Both the position numbers and the translations under genes were made by a program. Shown one piece after another: positions 60 to 26,217 of a stretch of 35,213 nt of DNA; within the stretch, counting starts at the first letter, position 1; each line of letters opens with the position of its first letter. The DNA comes from an uncultured Verrucomicrobiota bacterium (GTDB lineage: Bacteria; Verrucomicrobiota; Verrucomicrobiia; Opitutales; Opitutaceae), in contig CAJXQX010000039.1 in assembly GCA_913058185.1 (NCBI GenBank), forward strand, positions 1-35,213, in the 5' to 3' direction. The notes beneath the pieces were generated by a model. That model was not told the DNA's origin, made no database searches, and saw only the letters and a list, made by a program, of their open reading frames with translations.

Positions 60-2480
60 TCAATGCTGAGCGACTTCGGTGGAACCGAATTCGCCGCGGA
101 AGAGTGGACTGGTGCAGATCTCGATGATTAGGTCTTGGAAGCCACCTTCGCGGTTCATATTCGCCGTCGCCATGTCGTCTGCGACCAGGCGCTCACCGAC
201 CGAAAGCGGATGACCCAGCGCGTAGGTGAAGAGCTTCTCGGTAATCGCCCGGGCAAATTGATCCGAACGCCCCACTAGCACTTTTTTCATCTCTTCCGAG
301 TTGGTGAAGGATCCGCCGGGCACACTGCCGCGCGCATCGATGGGTTGCCCGCCGCGATAAGCGCTACGGTATTGTCCGACTGCATTAAAGTGCTCCAAAC
401 CAAAGCCCCACGGATCGATGCTCATGTGGCAATCGCGGCAGGACTCGACGTCGCGATGTTTAGCCAGCATTTCGGGAATCGTTTTACTCCCCCGCACATC
501 CGGTTCGATCGGCTCGACATCAGCCGGGGGCGGTGATGGCGGGTCACCTAAAATATTCTCCAACACCCACACCCCACGCACCACGGGCGACGTGCGCGTG
601 CCATTGGACGTGAGTTTTAATACGCTGGCCTGCCCCAATAATCCTCCGCGCGGGCTGTTCGCGGGCAGCGCGACTTTACGAAAATCACTTCCCCGCACTT
701 CAGGGATTTCGTAGTGCTTGGCGAGGCGCTCGTTGATGACGACAAACTCGGAATCCAAGAACGTTGCCAGCGGCAGGTTTTCGCGCAGCACCAGGTCAAA
801 GAAGTTCTCACTTTCCTCGCGCATGAGCGACTCGAGCAAGGGGTCGTAATCTTTGTAGAGCTTGGGGTCAGGTTTCATCAGCTCGATGTGATTGAGACCC
901 AACCATTGTCCGGTGAAATCGGTCACGAATCGATGGGCTTTCTTATCGGCCAGCATCCGTACTGCCTGGGCGCCCGATACGTCCGGATCTCGCAGCTGAC
1001 CGGCGGCGGCGAGACGGAGTAACTCATCGTCCGGCATGGAATTCCAGAGGAAATAAGATAGCCGACTAGCTAAGGCCCAATCGTCGCTCTCGTCACCTTG
1101 GTCGTAGTTGAAAAGGAAACGCGGCGAACACAACGCACCCGCCACCACGTTGCGCATGGACTCCTCGTCGGAGAGTCCCTGACTCAATCCTGTGCGATAA
1201 AGGCGTTGGAAATTCGCGACCGTGCTGTCCGGAACGGGACGACGAAAAGCCCTCAGCAGGAAGTCTGCGATTGGTTGGTTGGTTTCCGTATTCGCGCCAA
1301 GCAGCTGCTGATGCGCCGGCGAAGGCCAGTCGTGAATATCGGGGCCGGAAACCGTGATCGACTTCACCTCGAGCAGATCACCGACCACGCGTTCCTCACC
1401 CTCTACCATCGCGAGCGGGGCGCCGTTGAGCACCGAAGCAGAGGCATAATGCACCATGATGTTCTCCCCCGCATTTAACTCCACATCCACCGTTTGCGCT
1501 TCGAGTTCATCGCCGAGGTAAAAATAAGCGACGCGCCTGCCCGGAACGCTGGCGGCATCCATGTGCCGCGCTTCTGATGCTTGAATCGCGATGATCGACA
1601 CCAAACCCGGCTCGTCAGCCGCGCGACGTTTACGCGTCTTCAACTTGTCTTCATAGCTCTCACTATTATAAACATAATCGGTTCCCGCCTCCTCCAACAC
1701 GGTCCGAAGGTCGCGGGCCAAGCCCTCCACGCGCACCCGATAGACTCCCTTTTGCGGTGTCACAAAATCCTCAGGCCACATCACGTATTTTCGATCACGA
1801 CTGGATGACGTGATCACAAAGTCGCCCCGCTCCTCGACATTATTGCCGTGGCCGATTGAGCCGATCGTATAGACGCGGTCTTCGCGCACATCCGGTCCCC
1901 CCGCGATGGCCAACCGCGCTATGTGTTGGGCATTGTTTTGCAGTTTGAGAATCATCTCTGGACTCGCATCCAGCGTGATCGCGAGATTCTCAAAACCATC
2001 GATTTCGGGATCGGCTGGCAGGTTTTCCGAGAGACTCAAATTGATGCCGAGCAGATCCTCCACCGTGTTATCCAGGGCGGTGTGGCTGAGTCGGCGAATC
2101 GCGATGCGACCGTGATTGCCCTGGGCGGCCACGGCGGCCCGCAATCGCGAATCAATCGCTCCGATCACCTGCGACATCAACGCGGCATCGGGCCTGACTT
2201 CCTCCTCTGGAGGCATGTCGCCGATGACCAACATATCCGACACATCCTGCCAAGAAATCGCGTTGCGCGCCTGAGTGAAATCGAACCCCAAGGTATCGAG
2301 CCGGATATCGCCCTTTTGCTTCTCCTCATCGTGACATTTAAAACAGTTCTCCTCCATGAAGGGAGTGAGCAACTGGCCAAAATCATCCATGGCCGTCGCG
2401 GCTCGGGGAATCAGTAAACCCAAACCAGCGATAAGGATCCGCCTCGAGAAAAGGCCGGGGAAAACAGGGGACGAATTCAT
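60..2480 (-). CDS. Exported c-type cytochrome, DUF1592/DUF1588/DUF1585 family
   Basis: This is a planctomycete-type exported cytochrome of about 806 aa. An N-terminal signal peptide (residues 1-30, ending RAATA) is followed by a PSCyt1-like haem site CFKCH (residues 46-50). A DUF1587-type segment (IAIRRLSHTALDNTVEDLLG), DUF1595/DUF1592 (the LASRLSYFLWNSMPDDEL block) and DUF1588 follow. A second haem motif CRDCH lies at 681-685, just before DUF1585. Two CxxCH motifs imply covalent haem and an extracytoplasmic electron-transfer role; the substrate is unknown. The ATG at 2480 is preferred because it gives a clean signal peptide. A TTG at 2522 would overlap the stop of the upstream gene (TTGA), so translational coupling is possible. 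It lies directly downstream of its usual partner, the DUF1552 protein, and is almost certainly cotranscribed with it. Confidence 0.9.
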   Translation of the reverse strand: MNSSPVFPGLFSRRILIAGLGLLIPRAATAMDDFGQLLTPFMEENCFKCHDEEKQKGDIRLDTLGFDFTQARNAISWQDVSDMLVIGDMPPEEEVRPDAALMSQVIGAIDSRLRAAVAAQGNHGRIAIRRLSHTALDNTVEDLLGINLSLSENLPADPEIDGFENLAITLDASPEMILKLQNNAQHIARLAIAGGPDVREDRVYTIGSIGHGNNVEERGDFVITSSSRDRKYVMWPEDFVTPQKGVYRVRVEGLARDLRTVLEEAGTDYVYNSESYEDKLKTRKRRAADEPGLVSIIAIQASEARHMDAASVPGRRVAYFYLGDELEAQTVDVELNAGENIMVHYASASVLNGAPLAMVEGEERVVGDLLEVKSITVSGPDIHDWPSPAHQQLLGANTETNQPIADFLLRAFRRPVPDSTVANFQRLYRTGLSQGLSDEESMRNVVAGALCSPRFLFNYDQGDESDDWALASRLSYFLWNSMPDDELLRLAAAGQLRDPDVSGAQAVRMLADKKAHRFVTDFTGQWLGLNHIELMKPDPKLYKDYDPLLESLMREESENFFDLVLRENLPLATFLDSEFVVINERLAKHYEIPEVRGSDFRKVALPANSPRGGLLGQASVLKLTSNGTRTSPVVRGVWVLENILGDPPSPPPADVEPIEPDVRGSKTIPEMLAKHRDVESCRDCHMSIDPWGFGLEHFNAVGQYRSAYRGGQPIDARGSVPGGSFTNSEEMKKVLVGRSDQFARAITEKLFTYALGHPLSVGERLVADDMATANMNREGGFQDLIIEICTSPLFRGEFGSTEVAQH

Positions 2481-2518
2481 CGAAGGAACGGTCGCTTCAG
2501 CGCAGCAATCGCCGGAGC

Positions 2519-3790
2519 TCAACCCAACTCGTTGTTAATATTTCCGGTGCTGGCCGCGAAGGTTTCCTGCTCCACTCCCATGCTCTGGAGCATGGTCACA
2601 AATACGTTACTCAGCGGCATCGTGCCTTGATCGAAGATCAGGTCTTTCCCGGTGTGGTTCAGGTCACCGCCGGCCACCAAAACGGGTAGGTTTTTATTGG
2701 AGTGGGAACTGCCGTTGCCCAAACCACTACCAAACAGAATCTGCGTGCGGTCGAACAGGCTCGCGCCGCCGTCATCGATCCCCTTCAAACGGGTAATAAA
2801 TTTCGACAGCGAACGGGTATGCATTTGCTCGATCCGGACGAGCTCGTTGATCACTTCCGGATCTTTTCCGTGATGAGATTGGCCGTGGTAGCCGGAGAGT
2901 TGCTCACCACCGACCGTTATGGGCAGGCCTCCCGCCGGCAGTTCAACCGAAGCGACGCGGGTGGAGTCATGCTGCAGGGCCAACGCCACCATCTCGAACA
3001 TGATGTCTAAATTCTCGTGGAAGGTGGTGGGCCGTTCGAGCAGCGGCGGCACGCCAGGCTTGGGCGTATTGATCCACTGCTGCTGACGCTCGATGCGTTT
3101 TTCGACGTCGCGGATGGATGAGAAGTAATCGTCGACCTTCTGACGGTCCTCGTAACCGATTTCTCTTTGCAGGGCCTTCGCGTCTTCGGCGACGAGATCG
3201 AGCACACTGCGCTGGAAGCCCATCGCGCGATCAGCGGCAGCGGGATTCAGGTCGTCAACGAAGAGTCGTTGAAACGCTTTAATCGGATCGGCCTCCGGCA
3301 GCAGCGGAACGCCGTTCTCGTCCCACGAAAGGGTTTGAGAGGGTTTACCTTCGGAGGCGCCGAGTTGGAGCGAATGGAACCGGCTGTTTACGCTGAGGTG
3401 CTTCGCGGCGAGTTGATCGAGCGTGATCTGGTTACGCACCATGATCGATTCGCCGATGAACTCGGGTTGGTATACGCCGGAAAGAAACGAAGGGGTGCCT
3501 TTGTGGCCACCGTTGATGCCGTGATCGACGCCCGACACGACGGTGAAGTCGTTGCGGTGCTCCATCAGCGGTTCGAGGAGCCGGGGAACCCGCGCGGATC
3601 CTGCCTTCGGGTGCCACTCACCGGGATACATGCCGAGGAAGGTGCCGACACAAACCAGTCGTTTGCGGGCTTCGAGCATCGGCTTCGCGGCTACAGCCGG
3701 TAGCGGCATTGAGCTGAGGAACGGCAAGGCCATCAATCCCCCAGCGCCGCGCAAAAATTGTCTGCGATTTAGATTGGTGGCGTTTCTCAT
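2519..3790 (-). CDS. Tat-exported DUF1552 (HXXSHH) protein
   Basis: This is a protein of about 423 aa with a twin-arginine signal (NRRQFLRGAGG, residues 9-19, then a hydrophobic stretch to about residue 34). It belongs to the family formerly called DUF1552, now named for the motif HxxSHH, seen here as HGQSHH at residues 302-307. The family is found mostly in Planctomycetota, Verrucomicrobiota and Myxococcota, is encoded beside DUF1592 cytochromes, and has no established reaction. The start at 3790 places the Tat motif near the N-terminus; the frame is open to 3913 but the extra residues look non-coding. The stop abuts the DUF1592 gene, so the two form an operon. The shared export and pairing suggest an extracytoplasmic redox or hydrolytic unit, which is inference. 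Confidence 0.9.
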   Translation of the reverse strand: MRNATNLNRRQFLRGAGGLMALPFLSSMPLPAVAAKPMLEARKRLVCVGTFLGMYPGEWHPKAGSARVPRLLEPLMEHRNDFTVVSGVDHGINGGHKGTPSFLSGVYQPEFIGESIMVRNQITLDQLAAKHLSVNSRFHSLQLGASEGKPSQTLSWDENGVPLLPEADPIKAFQRLFVDDLNPAAADRAMGFQRSVLDLVAEDAKALQREIGYEDRQKVDDYFSSIRDVEKRIERQQQWINTPKPGVPPLLERPTTFHENLDIMFEMVALALQHDSTRVASVELPAGGLPITVGGEQLSGYHGQSHHGKDPEVINELVRIEQMHTRSLSKFITRLKGIDDGGASLFDRTQILFGSGLGNGSSHSNKNLPVLVAGGDLNHTGKDLIFDQGTMPLSNVFVTMLQSMGVEQETFAASTGNINNELG

Positions 3791-4130
3791 GGGTAAGGAG
3801 TGGGTCGACGGGGTGTTCGAGCTAGAAGGGGAAACCCTACGCAGCTTATTCACTACCGCAAACAGGCGTGACTCTTCCAGCCCAAACCTCCTTTCCCAGG
3901 TAAGGAAAGTCATGAAATTTAAGCCGACTACAAACCTCCGGGACGCAAAAAGCCCAGGAACCTAATCGCTAATCAAATCTCTGTTGTAGCCGGTCTCGTT
4001 GAGGCCGGAGCGGTTGCCCCTCGGCACCAGGCCAGATGGAACACCGGGGTCAGCATGTCTCGACGAAGCTTTAGCGAAGTTGGACGACCCCCGGCTACAA
4101 TTATACCTTCTCTCGATTACAGCCCAGGGC
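3791..4130. other. Intergenic region with a repeat element
   Basis: This gap lies between the DUF1552 gene and the stop of the oxidoreductase gene. It must hold the promoter of the minus-strand DUF1552-DUF1592 operon, but I see no convincing -35/-10 pair. The distal part is occupied by the inverted-repeat-bounded element at 3984-4100. No tRNA or credible small gene is seen. Confidence 0.5.
3984..4100. repeat. Intergenic repeat bounded by 10-bp inverted repeats
   Basis: TTGTAGCCGG (3984-3993) and its exact complement CCGGCTACAA (4091-4100) bracket the interval. Inside are a GAGGCCGGAG segment, an ACCGGGGTCAGC segment and GACGAAGCTTTAGCGAAG. The GTAGCCGG terminus and the GGGGTCAGC word recur in the perfect inverted repeat at 11329-11412, so the two are probably members of one dispersed repeat family. 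The position just after the oxidoreductase stop codon fits a repeat tolerated at a 3' end. Confidence 0.55.
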
Positions 4131-10627: not shown

Positions 10628-10652
10628 CTTTCTTCGTTCTCTTTCTCTTTCC
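10628..10652. repeat. Polypyrimidine tract resembling the GTTCTC repeats
   Basis: The tract TCTTTCTTCGTTCTCTTTC and its continuation resemble the arms of the inverted-repeat elements at 18843, 23843, 24691 and 26117. No matching opposite arm or GGCGC core is obvious, so it may be a half-element or a chance tract. It lies between the gene at 10185 and the truncated acetyltransferase. Confidence 0.35.
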
Positions 10653-10718
10653 ATGTCCGCCATAGCCCTAGGGACGGCGGATCTTTCTCGACAGTCCTGC
10701 CTCCCATCCCCTCCTGCC

Positions 10719-11451: not shown

Positions 11452-12897
11452 TTACTCGGCCTCGACCTCGGGAGCTTCCGGCAAAACGAGCGGCTTCGCT
11501 CCGAAATCCACCCGGAATGTTTCCTCGGCAATCCGGCGTTGATTGGCGGCGATTTGTTGCCGGTAACGGTCGAGCTTGCGGCGATTCTCCAACTCCTCCG
11601 CGAGGGCCATCACGGCGGTTGGAGTTATGCCGGTTTGCCATACATAAATTTGCCGAAGACGAGGAAGCCCGGTGAGTGCTTCCAGGGCTGCATCCGTGAC
11701 GCTAGTGGAATGAAGATTGAGCGAAACGAGCCGCTTCAGCGGACTCAATTGGGCGAGACCGGTATCGGTGATCGCGGTGTCGTCGAGCCGGAGGCGTTGC
11801 AGCCCGGCCATTTCCCCGACCAGCGCCAAGCCCGCATCGGTCACGCTTGTGCCACCGAGATCTAATCGGTGTAGGGCTGGGGCCAACGGCATCAATCTCG
11901 CCAACGCGTCATCATCGAAGGCATCACCCGCCAAGCGTGCATTCGCGCCCAGCCAGGGATCCTCGGTGGTGAGCGGTCGAATCGTGATGCCAAGCTGCAT
12001 CTCGAGAGATTTGGCCAAAACCAGCATTTCTGCGCGATCCGGAATCGGCGGAAGCGGAAGACCCAGTTGAGTCGCTACGATTTCAACCACTTCCGGATCG
12101 GGCGAACGCGCCATGAATCCACCCTCGGCGGGAGCCTCGTCAGAGATCCACCATTCCAAGACCACGATGTCAGTATCGGTGGGTTGCGGCCGGCCTGTCG
12201 GTGGCATGTGTTCTTTGTGATCGAGCGGTAAATACAGTCGGCGTAGGAGCAGGCTATCGCTCGGTTCACCGGGAACCAGGGCATCGCCATGTTCGCCGCC
12301 GGCCACAATCGCCTCAAACGAATCCAATCGCAGGTCCCCATCGCTACGCGACTCGCCGTGACAGGCGACGCATCGCGCATTGAGCACCGGTTGCACGACA
12401 TCGAGAAACACGTCGGCCTCGGCCAGAGTTGTAGGCGTCGGGCGACCGGGTTCACCTCCACCCAATAACGGCTGCAAAATGGCCGGGGCATGTTCGGCCA
12501 AGTAACCCGGGCCATGGGTCAAAGCCCCGCCGTTATGGCCCGTCCAGCTCATGATCCCCAACGCCACTGCCAGCACCGCACCGTAAAACTTGGGCCAACG
12601 CTGAATCACTACGAGCACGACCGTGAGTCCCAGCGTCACAAACCCGAGAATCCGATGCCGATCTACGAGAACCTCGTCGTAACTCCCCTGTTGTCCGAGC
12701 AACCAGCCACAGCCCGCTGCCAACGACGCACCGACCACCGCGAAAACCAAAATTACGGTGCGCGCACCGGGCGTGAGTCGGAGCTTCGACCACCGCCAGC
12801 CCACCGCTTCAGTCACGGCCAAAACCAGCAACACCCCGATCGGTAGGTGAACGACCAGAGGATGAAAACGGCCAACAAATATCGCAAAATCAGACAT
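11452..12897 (-). CDS. Membrane cytochrome c with leucine-rich repeats
   Basis: This 481-aa protein has three parts. Residues 1-120 hold four hydrophobic segments (about 13-33, 43-68, 83-101, 104-120) resembling the DUF2231-type membrane module. Residues 160-260 form a planctomycete-type cytochrome c domain with the haem motif CVACH (176-180) and a distal HMPPTGRPQPTD loop likely to supply the Met ligand. Residues 350-455 carry leucine-rich repeats (LHRLDLGGTSVTDAGL, LQRLRLDDTAITDTGL, LVSLNLHSTSVTDAAL). The combination suggests a membrane-anchored electron carrier with a protein-interaction surface. It is the last gene of a tight operon, 22 bases after the DUF1501 stop, and probably serves as the membrane link of that module. 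Confidence 0.9.
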   Translation of the reverse strand: MSDFAIFVGRFHPLVVHLPIGVLLVLAVTEAVGWRWSKLRLTPGARTVILVFAVVGASLAAGCGWLLGQQGSYDEVLVDRHRILGFVTLGLTVVLVVIQRWPKFYGAVLAVALGIMSWTGHNGGALTHGPGYLAEHAPAILQPLLGGGEPGRPTPTTLAEADVFLDVVQPVLNARCVACHGESRSDGDLRLDSFEAIVAGGEHGDALVPGEPSDSLLLRRLYLPLDHKEHMPPTGRPQPTDTDIVVLEWWISDEAPAEGGFMARSPDPEVVEIVATQLGLPLPPIPDRAEMLVLAKSLEMQLGITIRPLTTEDPWLGANARLAGDAFDDDALARLMPLAPALHRLDLGGTSVTDAGLALVGEMAGLQRLRLDDTAITDTGLAQLSPLKRLVSLNLHSTSVTDAALEALTGLPRLRQIYVWQTGITPTAVMALAEELENRRKLDRYRQQIAANQRRIAEETFRVDFGAKPLVLPEAPEVEAE

Positions 12898-12919
12898 GCA
12901 AAAAAGAGGCGCCGAAAGA

Positions 12920-14365
12920 TCAGGTCATGATGCCGTTGACCACATGGCCATGCACATCGGTGAGGCGGAAATCGCGACCCTGGTAACGGTAGGTCAGTTT
13001 TTTATGATCAATCCCAAAGCACGCTAACATCGTCGCGTGGAGATCATGGACGTGCACTTGCTGGCCATCATTGAGGTAACGGTAGCCAAGATCATCGGTC
13101 GAACCCCAGGTCATACCCGGACGAATTCCGCCGCCTGCCATCCAAACCGAGAAGGCGTTGATATGATGGTCGCGCCCGGTGCCCTGCCCCATTGGCGTGC
13201 GACCAAATTCTCCGCCCCAAATCACGAGGGTGTCTTCCAACATACCGCGTTGCTTGAGATCCTTCACCAAAGCGGCCGATGCTTGATCCACCAGCGTACT
13301 CGCCACCTGGATATTTTGATCGAGTTTACTGTGATGGTCCCACCCGCGGTGATAGAGCTGCACAAAACGGGAGCCACGTTCGAGCAGACGTCGCGCGAGC
13401 AAGCAGTTGGCGGCAAACGATCCATCCCCCGCTTCTTTTACGCCATAGAGGTCAAGCATGGATTGCGGTTCCTCACTCAGATCCGCGAGCTCCGGCACAC
13501 TCGTCTGCATCTTGAAGGCCAACTCATATTGCGACACCCGCGTCTCGATCTCCGGGTCCAACGAATGCTCCTTTTGCAGGTTGTTGAGACGGGCAACTTC
13601 GTCGATGATCTGGCGTTGAGTGCTCTGGCATACGCCATCGGGATTACCGACATAATGCACCGGCGCGCCGCGACTCTGGAACTGCACACCTTGAAATTTA
13701 CTTGGTAAAAATCCGGCCGACCATTGTCGGGCCGAGATGGGTTGCGCGCCGCCTCCCCCTTCCGAAACGAGCACCACATAACCGGGTAGATTTTCGGCTT
13801 CGGAACCCAAACCATAGAGCAACCAAGAACCCATGCTAGGCCGACCTTTGTTGATCGAACCCGCGTTCATGAACGCGTGCGCTGGGTCGTGATTTATTTG
13901 CTCGGTGTGCATCGAACGCACGACGCAGATGTCATCGGCAATGCTTTGGGTGTGCGGCAACAGATTACTGATCATTTGGCCGGAGATACCACACCGGCGG
14001 AAGTCGACCGCGGCCCCGCGAGCTAGCAGCTCCGCGCCCTGCAGTTGCGCCAGTTGCTCGCCTTTGGTAAAGGACTCGGGAAACGGCTGACCGTGCAGTC
14101 GATTAAGCATCGGTTTGGGATCAAACAGGTCCACGTGGGAAGGACCGCCGGCCATGCAAAGATGCACCACGCGTTTGGCCTTCGGATAAAAATGAGGTCC
14201 ATCCAACACCCCGCGCCAAGGCTGCTGCTGGCCCAGTAGATTCGGGTTTATGATCGAACCAAGAGCGAGCGTGCCGATCGCCTGCGCTGACTTGCCCAGA
14301 AACGTCCGCCGCGACCAAGCGCGCTGGTGGTTCTCCAAGTTCTTAATGTCCTGAGGGGTGATCAT
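12920..14365 (-). CDS. Tat-exported DUF1501 protein
   Basis: This protein of about 481 aa has a Tat signal (SRRTFLGKSAQAIG, twin Arg at 19-20) and the DUF1501 domain. Family blocks visible are VVHLCMAGGPSHVDLFDPKP, the VVRSMHTEQINHDPAH segment, VWGGEFGRTP and GRDHHINAFSVWMAGGG. DUF1501 belongs to the alkaline phosphatase/sulfatase-like superfamily; the His and Asp residues in those blocks are the likely metal ligands, but its substrate is unknown. The start at 14365 places the Tat signal at the N-terminus and leaves 14 bases after the PSD1 stop. The order PSD1 cytochrome, DUF1501, membrane cytochrome is a standard gene set in Planctomycetota and Verrucomicrobiota. Confidence 0.93.
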   Translation of the reverse strand: MITPQDIKNLENHQRAWSRRTFLGKSAQAIGTLALGSIINPNLLGQQQPWRGVLDGPHFYPKAKRVVHLCMAGGPSHVDLFDPKPMLNRLHGQPFPESFTKGEQLAQLQGAELLARGAAVDFRRCGISGQMISNLLPHTQSIADDICVVRSMHTEQINHDPAHAFMNAGSINKGRPSMGSWLLYGLGSEAENLPGYVVLVSEGGGGAQPISARQWSAGFLPSKFQGVQFQSRGAPVHYVGNPDGVCQSTQRQIIDEVARLNNLQKEHSLDPEIETRVSQYELAFKMQTSVPELADLSEEPQSMLDLYGVKEAGDGSFAANCLLARRLLERGSRFVQLYHRGWDHHSKLDQNIQVASTLVDQASAALVKDLKQRGMLEDTLVIWGGEFGRTPMGQGTGRDHHINAFSVWMAGGGIRPGMTWGSTDDLGYRYLNDGQQVHVHDLHATMLACFGIDHKKLTYRYQGRDFRLTDVHGHVVNGIMT

Positions 14366-14379
14366 GGTCGGGTCACGCG

Positions 14380-17300
14380 TCAGTAACGCATGAGGGTTTC
14401 GTTGAGATTGAGCAGCACGCGAGCGACCTGGGTCCAAGCGGCAAGTTCGACTCGGTCCAGCACTGCATTTGTCGGACGAAGCCCGACCGCCGCCAGCTTC
14501 GCCGCATCTTCCATTTCATCGCTATAGTTCGCGTGTTGAGTAAAATAAAATTCCTTCAACCCAGTGGCTTCTGCCTGAGTCGGGGAACGCGCCAAGACCA
14601 GTCGATACGCATGCTCGATCCGTGATTCGAAATCGGTCTGGGAAGGCTCCGTCATAGCTCGCTCCGCCAACGCCCGGGCGGCTTCCACGAAGGTAGGGTC
14701 GTTGAGTAAGGTGAGGGCCTGTTGCGGGGTGTTCGAGACCGTGCGATCTGCGGTGCACTCTTCGCGCGAAGGCGCGTCAAAGTTGGCCATCATCGGATGA
14801 GGGAACGTGCGCTGCCAATGGGTGTAGACGCCGCGACGATACTGGCGTTCATCGAGGTCCGCTTGATACTGGCGTTTCGGAAAATTCAACGAGGCGTAGT
14901 AACCCTCGGGCTGATAGGGTTTCGCACTCGGGCCACCGATTTCCGGGTCCAGTAAACCGGCGGCGAACAGCGCATTGTCCCGCACAAACTCCGCCCCTAA
15001 ACGTCGCGACGGGTGCGATGCCAGCAACCGATTATCGGGATCAATATTCCGGAGATCTTCACGGTAGGTCGACTGTTGCCGATAGGTCGCGGAACTCACG
15101 ATCAAACGCACCATAGCCTTCACATCCCAATCCAACTCGACGAATTCCACCGCCAACCAATCCAACAACTCTGGATGACTCGGATACTCCCCTTGCAGTC
15201 CCAGATCATCAATCACCGCCGAAAGACCTGTGCCAAAAAACTGGTTCCACATTCGGTTCACTTGTGTCCGCGCGGTAAGTGGATTTTCGGGCGATACAAT
15301 CCACTCGGCCAAATCCAGGCGCGACGACCGTCCCGCTGAAACCGGAAGTCCCTTCGCGATAAAACTAGGAGGAGCCGGTTGCACCATCTCACCCGATTCG
15401 TCCTGCCAGTTTCCTCGCGGCAGCACGCGGGTCTCGAGCGGCTCCATCGCTTCGGTGATCATCGTAAATGCCATGCCTTCCCGACACGCCGCAATCTCGC
15501 GTAGGGTTTCCAAGGCGGTCGCATAGGCCGTGGCATCGGTTGCACCCGTGCTTTTAAAATACTCTGCGGCTAAGAGCCGCAATTGGGCGTCGGTTAGAAT
15601 AGCCCCGGCACTTGATACCGCTGTCGCCACCGCGGAAGACAGGCCGCTCACCACGTCATCCCAGTTTCGCCGCACGCCCAACGGCGAGGAATACAAACGA
15701 GTCCGGGCCAAATTGGTCGTCTTGAGCGTCACCACCAATTGGTCCCCCGCTTCAATTTCGATCGGTGCCGCGAGCTGATAAACCACGTTATGTTTTTCGC
15801 GAGCAAACTGCGGCGCCGTTTGCCAACGGGATTCCACCGAAGTGATCAGGTAGGCGTTAATATAGGTCCACGAATCACGATCCGGATATCCTCCCGCCAA
15901 TTCAATTTTCTGGGATTCCGTCGCCCCTTTACGGCGTAGTTCGATCTGGGGACTCACCGCGAAGGAACCAAACGTGTCTCGCGCCACAGTGCCACTTCCC
16001 TGCAGGTCGGGTAAGGCTTCGAGCCGCACCGCCGAGATCGTGCCAGAGGCTGGAGCAAGGACCAACAGGGTGCCGGATTTATCGTTACCTTTTTGATCCG
16101 CTTTGGGGATGTTCTCCATCCGCACGAAATTGTCGGACTGCGTCGTAACCACGGTGAGATCATCCCCGGTCGCTTGAACAACCTCCATGACCGACCAAGA
16201 ACCGTTTGATTCAAACAACACGTCGGCATTGTCGCGGGCCCAATCAATCACGCGCCTTCTCTCGCTGGGTCGGGCTAGGATGTTTTCGACGATTCGTTCG
16301 ACACGCTCATCCTGAGCTTGCTGGAGTCGAATCGCGCGACGCTTCAGGTAATCGTTTTCGACATCCATCTCGGGAGGAAATGGGAAGCTGTTATTAAAAC
16401 CCTTTAGTTCGGGATTGGGCGTGTATTTGTAATCATTATACACGCCCCACTGCTTCACGTCGGCGAAGTAGGCGGCGAGGCTATAGAAGTCGCGGGTCGT
16501 GAACGGATCGTATTTGTGGTCGTGGCATTCCGCGCAGCCCACGGTTGAACCCATGAAGGTCGTCGAAACGGCGCGAACGCGGTCGGCGGCGGACTTGGCC
16601 AGGTATTCTTTAGGCTGCGCCCCACCCTCGCGGGTCATGAGGTTCAGGCGATTGAAACCAGTCGCGACGATTTGTTCGGGAGTGGCGTCGGGCAACAAAT
16701 CACCGGCCAATTGCTCACGCACAAAATCGTCGTAAGGCTTGTTCTGGTTGAACGCGCCGATGACGTAGTCGCGGTAAGGGAAGATGTTTTGATTTTGGTC
16801 GCCATGAAACCCGACTGAGTCGGAAAAGCGCACCAGGTCCAACCACGGCACCGCCATGCGTTCGCCGAAGTGGGGAGAGCTCAAAAGCCGGTCGACGGCG
16901 TGCTCGTAGGCATCGGGCCGATCGTCGGCTAAAAACAGGTCCAATTCGTCTGTCGTGGGTGGCAATCCAACCAGATCGAGCGAAACGCGGCGCAGGAGGG
17001 TCGCACGGTCAGCCTCGGGGTGCGGCGTGATGCCTTGTTCCTCAAGCTCGCGAACAATGAACTGGTCGATCGCATTGCGCGCAAAACCGGTTGGCTCTAC
17101 GGCTGGTGGCGCTACTTTCTTCGGCTTAATGTAAGCCCAGTGCGGTTGGTATTCGGCGCCCTGCTCGATCCATCGCTTGATGACCTCGCGATCTTGTTCG
17201 GTCACCTGATGCAGGGCATCGGGCGGCGGCATGATTTTGACGGGGTCCGAACTTGTCAGGCGCATCCACACTTCCGATTCCGCCGGCTTTCCGGGCACGA

Positions 17301-17538
17301 TTCCCGTGATGGTGCGACCCGCCTTGTTGACGTGCGGTTTGATGGCTAAATCGCGTAGATCCAAACGCAGTTTGGACTGGTTAGCCTCAGTGTCGGGTCC
17401 GTGGCACTTGAAGCACGTGTTGGACAGGATTGGCCGCACATCGCGGTTGAACTCGATCTGCTCAGGGATGGGTTCCGCGCTCGCAGACACAATCAAGCCG
17501 AGACAGAAAATCAGCTCAGCTCGGCGCAAACAAGTCAT
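14380..17538 (-). CDS. Exported PSD1/PSCyt1 cytochrome (DUF1549-DUF1553)
   Basis: This is a protein of about 1052 aa. A signal peptide (MTCLRRAELIFCLGLIVSASA) is followed by a planctomycete cytochrome c domain with CFKCH at 42-46. DUF1549 spans about 155-360 and contains a second haem-type motif, CAECHDHKYDPF at 335-345. A long variable middle region looks like a carbohydrate-binding or jelly-roll insert, and DUF1553 spans about 740-1010 (NPLTARTQVNRMWNQFFGTG, SHPSRRLGAEFVRDNALF). It is the first gene of the three-gene module. The start at 17538 is chosen for the signal peptide; the frame is open to 17601. The family is thought to act outside the cytoplasm with DUF1501, but the reaction is not established. 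Confidence 0.92.
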   Translation of the reverse strand: MTCLRRAELIFCLGLIVSASAEPIPEQIEFNRDVRPILSNTCFKCHGPDTEANQSKLRLDLRDLAIKPHVNKAGRTITGIVPGKPAESEVWMRLTSSDPVKIMPPPDALHQVTEQDREVIKRWIEQGAEYQPHWAYIKPKKVAPPAVEPTGFARNAIDQFIVRELEEQGITPHPEADRATLLRRVSLDLVGLPPTTDELDLFLADDRPDAYEHAVDRLLSSPHFGERMAVPWLDLVRFSDSVGFHGDQNQNIFPYRDYVIGAFNQNKPYDDFVREQLAGDLLPDATPEQIVATGFNRLNLMTREGGAQPKEYLAKSAADRVRAVSTTFMGSTVGCAECHDHKYDPFTTRDFYSLAAYFADVKQWGVYNDYKYTPNPELKGFNNSFPFPPEMDVENDYLKRRAIRLQQAQDERVERIVENILARPSERRRVIDWARDNADVLFESNGSWSVMEVVQATGDDLTVVTTQSDNFVRMENIPKADQKGNDKSGTLLVLAPASGTISAVRLEALPDLQGSGTVARDTFGSFAVSPQIELRRKGATESQKIELAGGYPDRDSWTYINAYLITSVESRWQTAPQFAREKHNVVYQLAAPIEIEAGDQLVVTLKTTNLARTRLYSSPLGVRRNWDDVVSGLSSAVATAVSSAGAILTDAQLRLLAAEYFKSTGATDATAYATALETLREIAACREGMAFTMITEAMEPLETRVLPRGNWQDESGEMVQPAPPSFIAKGLPVSAGRSSRLDLAEWIVSPENPLTARTQVNRMWNQFFGTGLSAVIDDLGLQGEYPSHPELLDWLAVEFVELDWDVKAMVRLIVSSATYRQQSTYREDLRNIDPDNRLLASHPSRRLGAEFVRDNALFAAGLLDPEIGGPSAKPYQPEGYYASLNFPKRQYQADLDERQYRRGVYTHWQRTFPHPMMANFDAPSREECTADRTVSNTPQQALTLLNDPTFVEAARALAERAMTEPSQTDFESRIEHAYRLVLARSPTQAEATGLKEFYFTQHANYSDEMEDAAKLAAVGLRPTNAVLDRVELAAWTQVARVLLNLNETLMRY

Positions 17539-17651
17539 AGGGGTAAAGACGAAGGAAATCACTAAACGGGTGAACTTCCATAAAGAGCGATCCTCCCTCA
17601 CTCGCGCAAGTGCCAGATTTATGGATCGTTAAGGTGGGCGTGACCGGGCCA

Positions 17652-18273: not shown

Positions 18274-18831
18274 TCAGTAAGTGAATGAAACCGTAGAGAC
18301 GATCGCACCGTAGCAAGCGATCACCAGTCCGACGAGGCGGGCCCGGCCCGGTTTACGATAGAGCCACTCCAGAAAGTCACGCATGCGAAACGGGGAAGCC
18401 CCGAGATAGATCGCCAAAGCGACGGCAACGAAGATCGCTATCTTGTAGAGATACAGTCGGCCAAAGTCAGTGACTTCTCCGTAATCCCACACCATGTAGC
18501 TGGCATCAAGCAGCGGCGATGCCGCCAGCAGGATCAATACGCAGGCTCCCCGCACGGCGAGGAAGTCAGGGACAAACTTGAAAGATCCAATCGCCACGAT
18601 GGCGAAGAATACAAAGAGCGCTTTCCTATATTGCCCGAAATCTGCGGCGGATAAATTAGCAATACGATACAGGAACCACGCGGCTCCGGTCCCGAAGAGA
18701 ACATAAGCCAAGGTGCGCGAACGCGGAAACCGCTTGATCGAGGTAACGATCGCGGGAAACGGCAGCAGAATTAAAACTCCCAGAATGAGGAGGAGCAAAC
18801 CGGTGATGAGCGTAGCGAGGGTGATTGTCAT
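18274..18831 (-). CDS. Integral membrane protein of unknown function
   Basis: This 185-aa protein has about five hydrophobic segments: residues 5-30, 40-58, 70-88, 92-108 and 128-145, with another near the C-terminus at 165-182. A basic loop (FLEWLYRKPGRARL) lies before the last one. I do not recognise a family. It is separated from gmk by seven bases, so the two are probably cotranscribed. Upstream is the four-helix-bundle element, which separates it from miaB. Confidence 0.75.
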   Translation of the reverse strand: MTITLATLITGLLLLILGVLILLPFPAIVTSIKRFPRSRTLAYVLFGTGAAWFLYRIANLSAADFGQYRKALFVFFAIVAIGSFKFVPDFLAVRGACVLILLAASPLLDASYMVWDYGEVTDFGRLYLYKIAIFVAVALAIYLGASPFRMRDFLEWLYRKPGRARLVGLVIACYGAIVSTVSFTY

Positions 18832-18842
18832 GGGCTAGGGGA

Positions 18843-19332
18843 TCTTTATCTTACTCGTTCTCTTTCTCGTTCTCGATATAATCTTCAAGGCCATAGTCAG
18901 ATTGTTCTTCTGCAACCGAGGAAGAGGGGCCGTTGCCTCCGAATCGAGAAATCAATCCCGCAATCATGGAGACAATCGCAACGAGTTGGTCCTTACCTGC
19001 TGCGACCGTGGCATCATCCACCCTTGCCCTCGTCTGAAGGACATCCAAGCAGGCGGCACACTCAACTGCCGAACCTCGGGCGATATCCAGAAATCGGCAC
19101 CGATCCGGGTGGGAGCGCTTCCCGTTCCCCTCCGCAATGTTCAGCACGATGCTCGTGGACGCGCGGTCCAACTGATTCTTCACCGCAAATTTACCCTCGG
19201 TTGATTCGATCAAATTTCCCGCCCAACCACAGAACTTCACCGCGTCTTGATAGACTCGGAGTTTTTCGTGATCAAAACGAGTCTTCATACAGAACGAGGG
19301 AGAATGAGAACGAGTAGGAGTAAGAATAAAGA
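18843..19332. mobile_element. Inverted-repeat element carrying a four-helix-bundle gene
   Basis: The arm at 18843-18874 (TCTTTATCTTACTCGTTCTC and on) matches, allowing gaps, the reverse complement of 19292-19332 (TCTTTATTCTTACTC, CTACTCGTTCTC, ATTCTC). The arms enclose only the four-helix-bundle gene and its leader. The same outer word, ATCTTTATCTT followed by CTC, ends the gene-less hairpin at 23843-23930. No target-site duplication is evident. The element sits in a minus-strand gene row between miaB and a membrane-protein gene, as an insertion would. Calling it mobile is inference. Confidence 0.55.
18851..19288 (-). CDS. Four-helix-bundle protein, S23/Avd family
   Basis: This is a 145-aa protein of the family first seen in 23S rRNA intervening sequences and related to the Avd accessory protein of diversity-generating retroelements. 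Typical blocks are HEKLRVYQDAVKFC, NQLDRASTSIVLNIAEGNGK, FLDIARGSAVECAACLDVL and a closing helix. Such proteins form basic pentameric barrels thought to bind nucleic acid. The ATG at 19288 is the family start; the frame is open to 19360 through the upstream repeat. The last residues, ENEKENE, are encoded by the GAGAAC terminal repeat itself, so the repeat is part of the gene. There is no ribosome-binding site of note. No rRNA or reverse transcriptase is nearby. Confidence 0.9.
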   Translation of the reverse strand: MKTRFDHEKLRVYQDAVKFCGWAGNLIESTEGKFAVKNQLDRASTSIVLNIAEGNGKRSHPDRCRFLDIARGSAVECAACLDVLQTRARVDDATVAAGKDQLVAIVSMIAGLISRFGGNGPSSSVAEEQSDYGLEDYIENEKENE

Positions 19333-19346
19333 GGTCGCAGCTGGCC

Positions 19347-20714
19347 TTATTCCGTCCCAATACCAGCCAGCATGAGATCGCCGTAGAGGGTGCTGATCGT
19401 CGAACGGGTTACGTTTACATCGACGATTTCGCCGACCAGACGCGGATCGGCATCGATAATCACGACCCGATTTCCGCGGGTGCGACCGGTGAAGTGTTGG
19501 CCGGTCTTGTCCGGACCTTCGAGCAGGACTTTCTGCACAGTGCCCACCAGTGACTCGTTGCGGCGTTTCGAATTTACTCGCAGCACGTCAAGGAGGGCTT
19601 GGTTACGGGCTTCTTTGACCTCGTCCGTGATTTGATCCTCGAGCTCGGCCGCCACAGTGCCGCTACGGATCGAATACTTGAAGATGTAGGCCATATCGAA
19701 GTTGCAGGCCTCGAACAGTTCTTTGGTTTGCTGGAAATCCTCTTCCGTCTCGCCAGGATAACCTACGATCACATCGGTCGAGAAATACATGTCCGGACGC
19801 ACGGCGCGGAGCGAATCGACGATTTCCTTGTAACGCTCCCGCGAGTAGGGGCGATTCATCGCGCGCAACATGGTGTTACTGCCACTTTGCATCGGCAGGT
19901 GCACATATTCACAGAGTTTGGACAGCCGACCATACGCCTCGATTAGATCCTGCTTGAAACCGCGAGGATGCGGCGAGGTGAAACGGATACGCTCGATGCC
20001 ATCGATCTCGTGGACCTTCTCGATCAACTGCACGAACGGCGAAATGCCATTGATTCCCTGGTAGTCGCGACGCCCGTAGCTCGTCACTATCTGGCCGAGA
20101 AGGGTGATCTCCCTCACGCCGCGTTGGGCAAGATTGCGGCATTCGGAGATGATGTCTTCCATCGGCCGCGAGCGCTCGTCGCCGCGGGTTTTCGGGACGA
20201 TACAAAAATTGCAGGACATGTTGCAGCCCTGCTGGATCGAAACAAATGCGCTGACTTGGCGCTCTTCGGTTTCGAGGTGATCGCGAATCGTGTTCTGCGA
20301 GTCGACCTCATCCCCGATATCAACGATGGAGTCGCCGATCGGCACGCCGGCGTCCCTCGCGGCCCGGATGTTATCTAGATAGTCGGGGACCTGGTGAAAT
20401 TTCTGAGTGCCGACGATGAGGTCGACGTCCGGTAACGTCTCGAGAATCGAGGCACCCCGGTTTTGGGCCATGCAACCGAGGATCCCTAATACGAAGTCCG
20501 GATTCTTCCTTTTTCGGCGCTTAACATAACCCGCCTTGCCGAGGGCCTTTTGCTCGGCGGAATCGCGAACACTGCAGGTATTGAGCAACAAGATGTCACA
20601 TTCAGCCTCCACATCGACGATCCGATATCCCCGCTCACGAAGCATCGCCGCAACAGCATCACTGTCGCGCTCGTTCATCTGGCAGCCATAAGTCTTAATG
20701 TAGACGCGGTTCAT
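19347..20714 (-). CDS. miaB: tRNA-2-methylthio-N6-dimethylallyladenosine synthase
   Basis: This 455-aa radical-SAM methylthiotransferase modifies A37 of tRNAs that read UNN codons. The N-terminal domain has the three cluster cysteines C11, C47 and C81. The radical-SAM motif is GCNMSCNFC with C164, C168 and C171. The MiaB-type FCIVPKTRGDERSR and GYPGETEEDF blocks are present, and a TRAM domain closes the protein (VLLEGPDKTGQHFTGRTRGN). Length and cysteines are complete. It is the first gene of a minus-strand row, with the four-helix-bundle element 58 bases past its stop. Confidence 0.95.
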   Translation of the reverse strand: MNRVYIKTYGCQMNERDSDAVAAMLRERGYRIVDVEAECDILLLNTCSVRDSAEQKALGKAGYVKRRKRKNPDFVLGILGCMAQNRGASILETLPDVDLIVGTQKFHQVPDYLDNIRAARDAGVPIGDSIVDIGDEVDSQNTIRDHLETEERQVSAFVSIQQGCNMSCNFCIVPKTRGDERSRPMEDIISECRNLAQRGVREITLLGQIVTSYGRRDYQGINGISPFVQLIEKVHEIDGIERIRFTSPHPRGFKQDLIEAYGRLSKLCEYVHLPMQSGSNTMLRAMNRPYSRERYKEIVDSLRAVRPDMYFSTDVIVGYPGETEEDFQQTKELFEACNFDMAYIFKYSIRSGTVAAELEDQITDEVKEARNQALLDVLRVNSKRRNESLVGTVQKVLLEGPDKTGQHFTGRTRGNRVVIIDADPRLVGEIVDVNVTRSTISTLYGDLMLAGIGTE

Positions 20715-24640: not shown

Positions 24641-24690
24641 ATCCTTCCTAAATACATCGAATCTTTCGCCTCCGACTCACTGCGCCTCTG

Positions 24691-24780
24691 CTCTTACTCA
24701 TTCTCGTTCTCGTTCTCGTTCTCTCCGAAACTTGCGGGCTGATCAGGCGGCGCCTCGCGCCGTCAAAGAACGAAGAAAGA
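24691..24780. repeat. Short GTTCTC-type hairpin element
   Basis: The arm CTCATTCTCGTTCTCGTTCT (24697-24716, continuing CGTTCTC) partly matches the complement of AAAGAACGAAGAAAG (24765-24779). The core stem GGCGC-CTC-GCGCC lies at 24749-24761. The loop flank GAAAC, GCGGGCTGAT, GGCGGCGC aligns with the element at 26117. It lies between convergent genes alkD-like and DUF3024. Confidence 0.7.
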
Positions 24781-24854
24781 TTGTGGGTGCGACCGGGGTA
24801 GACGACCAGGCAGATTATGATTTGGTGAACTCTCTTTCGGTTTCCGCTCCGTAA

Positions 24855-26116: not shown

Positions 26117-26217
26117 TACTCTTAATCGTTCCTCGTTCTCGTTCTCTCTGGAAACCACGGGTTGATGGGGCGGCGCTTCTGCGCCGTCAGAGAAAGAGAA
26201 CGAGAACGATTAAGAGA
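26117..26217. repeat. Short GTTCTC-type hairpin element, longest arms
   Basis: The outer arms CTCTTAATCGTT (26119-26130) and AACGATTAAGAG (26205-26216) are perfectly complementary. The pairing continues inward through CTCGTTCTCGTTCTCTCTG against CAGAGAAAGAGAACGAG, with one small gap. The core stem GGCGC-TTCT-GCGCC lies at 26172-26185. It lies between the convergent ankyrin and sulfatase genes. Confidence 0.8.

Follow-up and report, generated by a model that had tools for sequence, protein, structure and literature searches.

A gene of the S23 type standing alone between two complementary repeats, in a spacer between protein-coding genes, raises the question of whether gene and repeats together form a mobile unit and by what means such a unit could spread. 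We report the analysis of a locus of this kind in the window, by which we mean the whole 35,213-nucleotide stretch of Opitutaceae DNA that was analysed. The gene (145 amino acids, 18851-19288, minus strand, ATG start at 19286-19288, stop codon at 18851-18853) is a member of the S23/23S_rRNA_IVP family of four-helix-bundle proteins, matching PF05635 in Pfam (E-value 2.4e-22, 79.6 bits against a cut-off of 33.8) and TIGR02436 (E-value 4.8e-21, 75 against a cut-off of 24), and its solved relative is 2gsc (E-value 2.3e-9). It is the sole gene found between the arms. In the sense of the gene, the 5' arm lies at 19300-19332 and the 3' arm, complementary to it, at 18843-18874, where it covers the last seven codons (ENEKENE) and the stop codon.

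The pairing of the arms is 85% complementary across the 26 nt of 18843-18868 and 19300-19325, and the gapped pairing of 18843-18874 with 19300-19332 scores 39, whilst 800 control windows of the same geometry, taken at a distance from the gene in loci that carry S23, reach at most 28 (3.75% at a score of 24 or more, none at 30 or more), which rules out a chance origin. With this score and the PF05635 match, the complementary arms around a lone S23-type gene that were proposed in the preliminary description of the locus are confirmed, as is its placing of one arm at 18843-18874; the other, which it had put at 19292-19332, is better drawn at 19300-19332. What it had called inverted repeats are indeed inverted, but they are more than that, being arrays of a short word (TTCTCG and TTACTC, for example) with a period of 6 nt, which is 7 nt in most relatives. 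The element is bordered upstream by a gene for a MiaB-type radical SAM protein (19347-20714, minus strand) and downstream by a gene for a 185-amino-acid protein that has no Pfam match (18274-18831, minus strand); both serve as markers of the site and lie outside the element, and the three genes share one direction. With these flanks, and with no Rfam match at the gathering threshold in the window, a location of the element in rRNA can be rejected.

The accessory protein Avd of diversity-generating retroelements (DGRs) is said to share the S23 fold family. A DGR would place a reverse transcriptase near such a gene, but a Pfam scan of 20 window proteins, including 17 of the 18 open reading frames of at least 230 amino acids, found no reverse transcriptase domain, which excludes such a partner beside the S23 gene here. 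The same scan found no transposase among the 20 proteins and none inside the element, which thereby departs from a classical DNA transposon in that S23 is its only gene, and no nuclease or polymerase family matches the S23 protein itself. Plasmid searches with the window protein gave no match, and those with one Nostoc element gave four short partial matches only, all on Riemerella plasmids.

Among the closest known systems are the intervening sequences of 23S rRNA. The preliminary description knew of no described element with these repeats, a claim that does not stand, as the intervening sequences have an S23 open reading frame and terminal inverted repeats (PMC4990558). That of Coxiella, as presented in the accessible text of the same source, spans 428 nt, with a single S23 frame, a terminal stem of 28 bp and, immediately ahead of the S23 start codon, repeats of the heptamer GACAGAT; the source describes it as selfish and, with reference to earlier work, as possibly mobile, and intervening sequences of this kind are excised by RNase III (PMC4990558). 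The window element shares the S23 frame between complementary termini but lies between protein genes and not within a 23S rRNA gene. The S23 elements described here differ further in occurring as several copies per genome, with words that go by lineage and with dispersed hairpins that lack S23, and in the accessible text of PMC4990558 the heptamers are not linked with S23 genes located elsewhere than in rRNA. We therefore file the window element as an extension of the S23 intervening sequences to the spacers between protein genes. Among the open-licence PMC papers listed by title and start of abstract, preprints lying outside this search, none described heptad-armed S23 genes in places other than rRNA, nor S23-less hairpins of the same word; two of those listed mention a 'four helix bundle protein' when comparing genomes.

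Folding of the transcript had been suggested as a check, and its outcome is divided: the arms do pair in the predicted transcript, but the fold of the entire element is only slightly, and not significantly, better than that of shuffled sequences (z of -1.09, with 15 of 100 shuffles as good). The cores of S23 proteins are uncharged on average (mean net charge 0.24; 46% of 170 positive), which argues against unspecific binding. The 2gsc structure is that of XCC0516 and has five chains, and an X. campestris S23 structure has been described as a homopentameric ring (PMC4990558); the two are presumably one and the same. That the ring has five members and each arm four to five heptads may be regarded as suggestive, and no more.

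To place the window element amongst its relatives, S23 genes were collected from a family sample of 61 genomes, namely the host (G000) and 60 others drawn from the larger family. A total of 143 raw matches was reduced by three (duplicates or short flanks) to 140, and omission of two second matches (L006b and L073b) left 138 copies, 134 from the family itself and four from the word scan described below. Arms score at least 24 in 116 of the 138 and at least 30 in 90, against 3.75% and 0% in the controls; with L006b and L073b counted, 117 of 140 score at least 24. A cross-pair null in a genus set of 45 copies, 9 of which lie above its 99th percentile, is inflated by shared words, and random windows were used as the control for this reason. 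The S23 gene and its own inverted ends thus recur as a unit, as had been predicted, although the contrary case that the preliminary description named, the gene without repeats in other genomes, also occurs, with 22 of the 138 copies scoring below 24 and so lacking detectable arms. The host genome holds six S23 copies, five with clear inverted arms and each pair with a word of its own; the sixth (L002) has no clear arms, with a score of 17. Just downstream of the S23 gene at another host locus (L006 on contig C88, oriented positions 1876-2041) there is a shorter S23-like stretch, possibly a remnant.

A typical element of the family has a median length of 448 nt and arms of 32 nt, and the arms are periodic: self-match between positions is 0.65 at lags of 7 and 14 and 0.24-0.29 at the remaining lags from 2 to 15, and the best lag among 114 arms tested is 7 in 96, 6 in nine and 8 in nine. 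A purely coding origin of the 6-nt words, through the overlap of the 3' arm with the gene, was considered and rejected, since the open reading frame takes in half or more of the arm in just four of the nine lag-6 copies, and a non-coding hairpin of the window also has a 6-nt period. G outnumbers C in the 5' arm of 96 of 116 copies and is outnumbered by it in 18, the window subtype being among the C-rich ones. The two arms of one element, compared with margins of 15 nt, agree with one another better than orthologous arms agree between genomes in 135 of 195 pairs.

Armed S23 genes extend well beyond the family. A scan of genome contigs with a DNA word gave at least 116 places, and among the matches listed S23 adjoins the word in only five, whilst inverted pairs at a score of 32 or more occur in 29 of the 116 listed, these five included. 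Thirty loci in 29 genomes were picked from the same 116, five with S23 known beforehand, from Nostoc and other cyanobacteria, Bacteroidota, Ignavibacteria, Planctomycetota, KSB1, candidate phyla and others. S23 is present in 26 of the 29 genomes, partly through the choice of loci, and absent from G085, G090 and G092. The 30 S23 loci returned from these other phyla, which are a part of all matches, have arms at a score of 26 or more in 24 cases, against 0.4% of 3366 control windows, and a lag-7 self-match of 0.67. Long tandem heptad arrays were also seen in Vibrio sagamiensis (L137) and in two cyanobacteria (L098 and L129); S23 was not found in these 8-kb loci, nor was a strong inverted partner of the array within a distance of 800 nt.

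The word in the arms follows the lineage of the protein. Amongst pairs of S23 genes with non-aligning outer flanks, a common word is found in all ten pairs with at least 80% protein identity and in 86% of 56 pairs at 70-80%; the share then falls to 10% of 78 pairs at 60-70%, 8% of 119 pairs at 50-60% and no more than 3% of pairs with a lower identity than 50%. Close relatives at different sites therefore agree in their word, and different lineages of S23 differ.

The same words are found in hairpins that contain no gene. Within the window, a hairpin with the word of the S23 element lies at 26119-26215 (arms 26119-26147 and 26185-26215; z of the RNA fold -8.5), a second, eroded one at 24689-24789 (array 24689-24727, with a weak partner at about 24767-24780 whose score of 16 is at chance level) has a loop that by eye resembles that of the first, and a lone array of the word occupies 10634-10658. 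All four hairpin RNAs that were folded gave z values from -7.4 to -9.8. Across the host genome the window word has 76 matches (one for the reversed pattern) and the word AGTAGCG has 67 (none for the reversed pattern), although AGTAGCG is carried by just one of the six S23 copies, an element whose flanking translations we take to be pheS and pheT. Twenty AGTAGCG regions were inspected in the host: nine hold 11 inverted pairs with loops of 21-75 nt and the remainder hold a lone arm. At four loci of this genome (L344, L347, L357 and L358) an arm of one word stands beside an arm or array of another.

Abundance of a word goes with possession of the corresponding S23 element. Matches to AGTTGAA number a median of 17 in the 13 genomes with that S23 word and 0 in the other 48 (p = 1e-6), those to AGTAGCG 26 in 11 genomes and 2 in 50 (p = 4e-4), and those to the window word 72 in the eight genomes with S23 at the miaB site and 1 in the 22 without (p = 5e-5); these tests take no account of phylogeny, and those for AGTTGAA and AGTAGCG draw on the fetched S23 copies only. 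Reversal of the pattern gives no usable control for AGTTGAA, whose pattern is palindromic in reading order, and apart from the single host match the control is non-zero in G010 (22, for AGTAGCG) and G013 (24, for the window word). There are exceptions to the rule: PF05635 is absent from ten of the 61 family genomes, and words nevertheless occur in S23-less genomes, with 40 and 45 matches for two words in G011, 37 in G050, 9 in G048, and 7 and 2 in G031, whilst G001 has 66 matches to AGTAGCG, yet none of its five S23 copies carries it. The many heptad words of G011 and G050 may be orphans.

We consider it probable, with some reserve, that these loci comprise an autonomous S23 element together with non-autonomous hairpins that lack S23, an arrangement resembling REPIN/RAYT but without a transposase and related to the rRNA intervening sequences. 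The element would consist of the S23 gene between two inverted arms, each of about four to five copies of a word of 6-7 nt. Lying in a spacer and pointing the same way as its neighbours, it is likely to be transcribed by read-through, with arms that can pair both in the transcript and in single-stranded DNA. Most likely the S23 protein recognises its own word in the hairpin and enables hairpins of the same word to spread into other intergenic spacers, presumably by way of an RNA or single-stranded intermediate and a copying enzyme; the S23-less hairpins would then depend on S23 in trans, as REPs are thought to depend on TnpA-REP/RAYT. In favour of this reading are the observed anatomy and heptad period, the match between word and S23 lineage, the very similar hairpins in different spacers, the common orientation with neighbouring genes and the change of occupants at one site between close relatives. 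Counting against it are the lack of a nuclease or polymerase match for S23 and of a transposase or reverse transcriptase among the scanned window proteins, the failure to see a target-site duplication by eye, the genomes with words but no S23, the many copies that look vertically inherited, the S23 cores without net positive charge on average, the modest fold of the whole window element and the scanned word that adjoins S23 in only five of the 116 places listed.

RAYT genes are arranged between inverted repeats. In REPIN/RAYT systems, as far as the sources consulted in part describe them, such a gene is associated with dispersed short palindromes that may be non-autonomous mobile elements (PMC3116915, PMC8049555, PMC8266576). 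The S23 elements likewise have dispersed gene-less hairpins that share the flanking repeat of the gene; RAYT, however, is a Y1/HUH transposase, and the window arms enclose instead S23, a four-helix bundle without known catalysis. We thus regard the S23 elements as working like REPIN/RAYT, the system nearest to them in arrangement, without being members of it. In one alternative, S23 is a passenger between the arms and a different enzyme moves the hairpins, be it a reverse transcriptase or a Y1/HUH transposase of the RAYT kind. Genes matching Y1_Tnp are present in 53 of the 61 family genomes, including G011 and G050, two genomes with heptad words and no S23 match. Twenty RAYT-like Y1_Tnp loci (L365-L384) were examined and appear as a separate inverted-repeat system beside the heptad hairpins: inverted ends scoring at least 30 flank 16 of the 20 genes, and in most cases their core is GGGGTCA-like or GTCAGG. 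The self-match of these ends at lag 7 is at most 0.52, against a mean of 0.65 in the S23 arms, and with this and their different core words they were rejected as the source of those arms. Since G024 and G029, moreover, lack a Y1_Tnp match while possessing S23 elements and words, and the agreement of the word with the S23 lineage also counts against another enzyme, we hold this alternative to be unlikely.

Many S23 copies occupy orthologous sites across genera (110 copies fall into 44 groups, 25 of them single) and look vertically inherited. With one copy taken per site and genes approximated as the longest open frame, S23 shares the direction of the upstream gene in 34 of 42 cases and that of the downstream gene in 37 of 42. 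The miaB site of the window was compared in the 30 loci returned from 38 matching genomes. S23 is present in eight and truncated in one (L270, in G008, counted as without S23); by eye, S23-less two-arm hairpins of other words stand in two (L274 and L278), lone arms in six (L254, L256, L261, L263, L269 and L275) and no clear array in the other 13, two of which (L253 and L264) had a called frame that ran on across the spot. At this site arms can abut stop codons. In L270 the word of the 3' arm differs from that of the 5' arm, as in a collapsed double insertion. The window word gives no match in two genomes outside this set of 30, G042 and G055, even though in G042 an S23 match adjoins that to miaB and the S23 copy of G055 (L248) groups with the window site.

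Two close relatives, G009 and G057, are collinear in 16 blocks across about 87 kb with 88-98% identity (length-weighted, 94%). Period-7 inverted pairs number 10 per 200 kb in G009 and 8 in G057, with two S23 elements in each, whilst other periods from 4 to 12 gave 0-2 pairs and one shuffle, called at periods 5 to 10, gave none. One shared spacer, with nearly identical flanks that by eye hold permease/ABC genes, contains an S23 element with the word TTTTCGA in G009 and a different S23 element with the word GGAATGC in G057. The genome-wide counts follow the same pattern, TTTTCGA occurring 168 times in G009 and 54 times in G057, and GGAATGC 56 and 101 times, respectively (Fisher p = 8e-15, for matches that overlap and so are not independent). 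Twenty TTTTCGA places in G009 show both arms in 17 (105-299 nt) and one arm in three. Ten of the hairpins, 105-109 nt in length, were aligned and have 92% mean column identity, although they lie in different spacers and in both orientations, a similarity which indicates copying; these ten and the G009 S23 element have in common the arms and an inner motif like GCGCTACCGCGC.

By eye, G057 has at 14 of the G009 hairpin sites the same word in three, a GGAATGC hairpin in four, another small repeat hairpin in two, no hairpin in three and other short repeats in one, with one site left unresolved by this inspection. The comparison of filled and empty sites between related strains that had been proposed at the outset thus bears out a change of occupants. 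The insertion boundaries, whose precision the preliminary description had also made a criterion, are not perfectly exact, as the divergent tract of the S23 swap reaches slightly past one arm. Inspection by eye found no consistent target-site duplication at the 17 hairpins or the 14 compared sites, and none of the 14 is a clean empty site at base resolution; since spacers can differ as far as the stop codon itself, the swaps could be products of homologous recombination. A second class of hairpin, with words of about 9-10 nt (ACCACGGATTACACGGATTA...), was seen in G009 (contig C1, 42945-43172 and 72714-72841; L417 and L418) and is absent at the same spots of G057.

A further alternative makes S23 a regulator and the hairpins immobile: within operon transcripts the arms would serve for processing or regulation, either as RNase III sites or as repeated sites bound by the S23 ring. 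TRAP-like binding of repeated sites by a protein ring offers a comparison for such a role. The co-directional spacers, the many orthologous sites and the arms that abut stop codons all suit it, and there are precedents, in the partial texts consulted, in the RNase III excision of rRNA intervening sequences (PMC4990558) and in the TAACTGA heptamers proposed as post-transcriptional sites (PMC4679880). The similar hairpins of about 109 nt in different G009 spacers and both orientations, and the three of 14 sites that are hairpin-free in G057, point instead to copying, and we judge this reading a little less probable still than movement by another enzyme. Slippage and quasi-palindrome correction readily affect tandem words and inverted pairs. 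On a third account, the arms are made and exchanged solely through slippage, recombination and template switching in hairpins, and their association with S23 is one of descent. This account can draw on the tract that extends beyond the arms and on the closer agreement of arms within an element, but it leaves unexplained both the similar 109-nt units at many spacers and the arms on S23 genes across phyla, and it is improbable.

Returning to the autonomous S23 element with its dependent hairpins, we advance a wider version of this reading more tentatively, giving it somewhat less than an even chance: S23 would define a class of mobile element that dispenses with a transposase and spans phyla, in which every S23 lineage has a code word of its own and the S23 ring reads that word and copies matching hairpins into spacers. 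The rRNA intervening sequences and the heptad stem-loops of cyanobacteria would be members or relics of this class, and arrival of a new S23 lineage in a genome would change hairpins genome-wide to its word. In the P6b stem of the Nostoc trnL intron there are 7-nt repeats of the form TDNGATT or NNTGAGT, which have repeatedly replaced one another and whose origin is stated not to be known (PMC4476775, seen in part). The arms of a Nostoc S23 element (L386, GCTGAGT) fit NNTGAGT, as those of no other among the 30 loci do, and TDNGATT is matched solely by a candidate-phylum locus (L390); the P6b stem-loops differ in lying within an intron and having no S23 gene, so that the link is one of word resemblance and behaviour. 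If true, a single hypothesis, that S23 reads a heptad word and spreads its hairpins, would tie together the S23 elements, the intervening sequences and the Nostoc P6b motifs; the elements would represent a type of mobile element without a recognised transposase, and the hairpins a built-in record of which S23 lineage had been active.

Other reports touch on parts of this picture. Intergenic 7-nt TAACTGA repeats are described from Beggiatoaceae, cyanobacteria and Bacteroidetes, and the proposal of post-transcriptional sites concerns those before start codons (PMC4679880, in the text available). Their host range overlaps that of the S23 arms, but they are direct repeats with one inverted case, and a text search of that source found no S23 or helix bundle. 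In the portions available, a figure legend of PMC10910872 includes the 23S rRNA IVP among CRISPR adaptation associations, and O. terrae is reported to be highly enriched in GTAG repeats (PMC3733652), where a text search did not find S23. Elsewhere in the window, planctomycete-type gene sets of PSCyt/PSD and DUF1501/DUF1552 genes occupy positions 60-3913 and 11452-17601.
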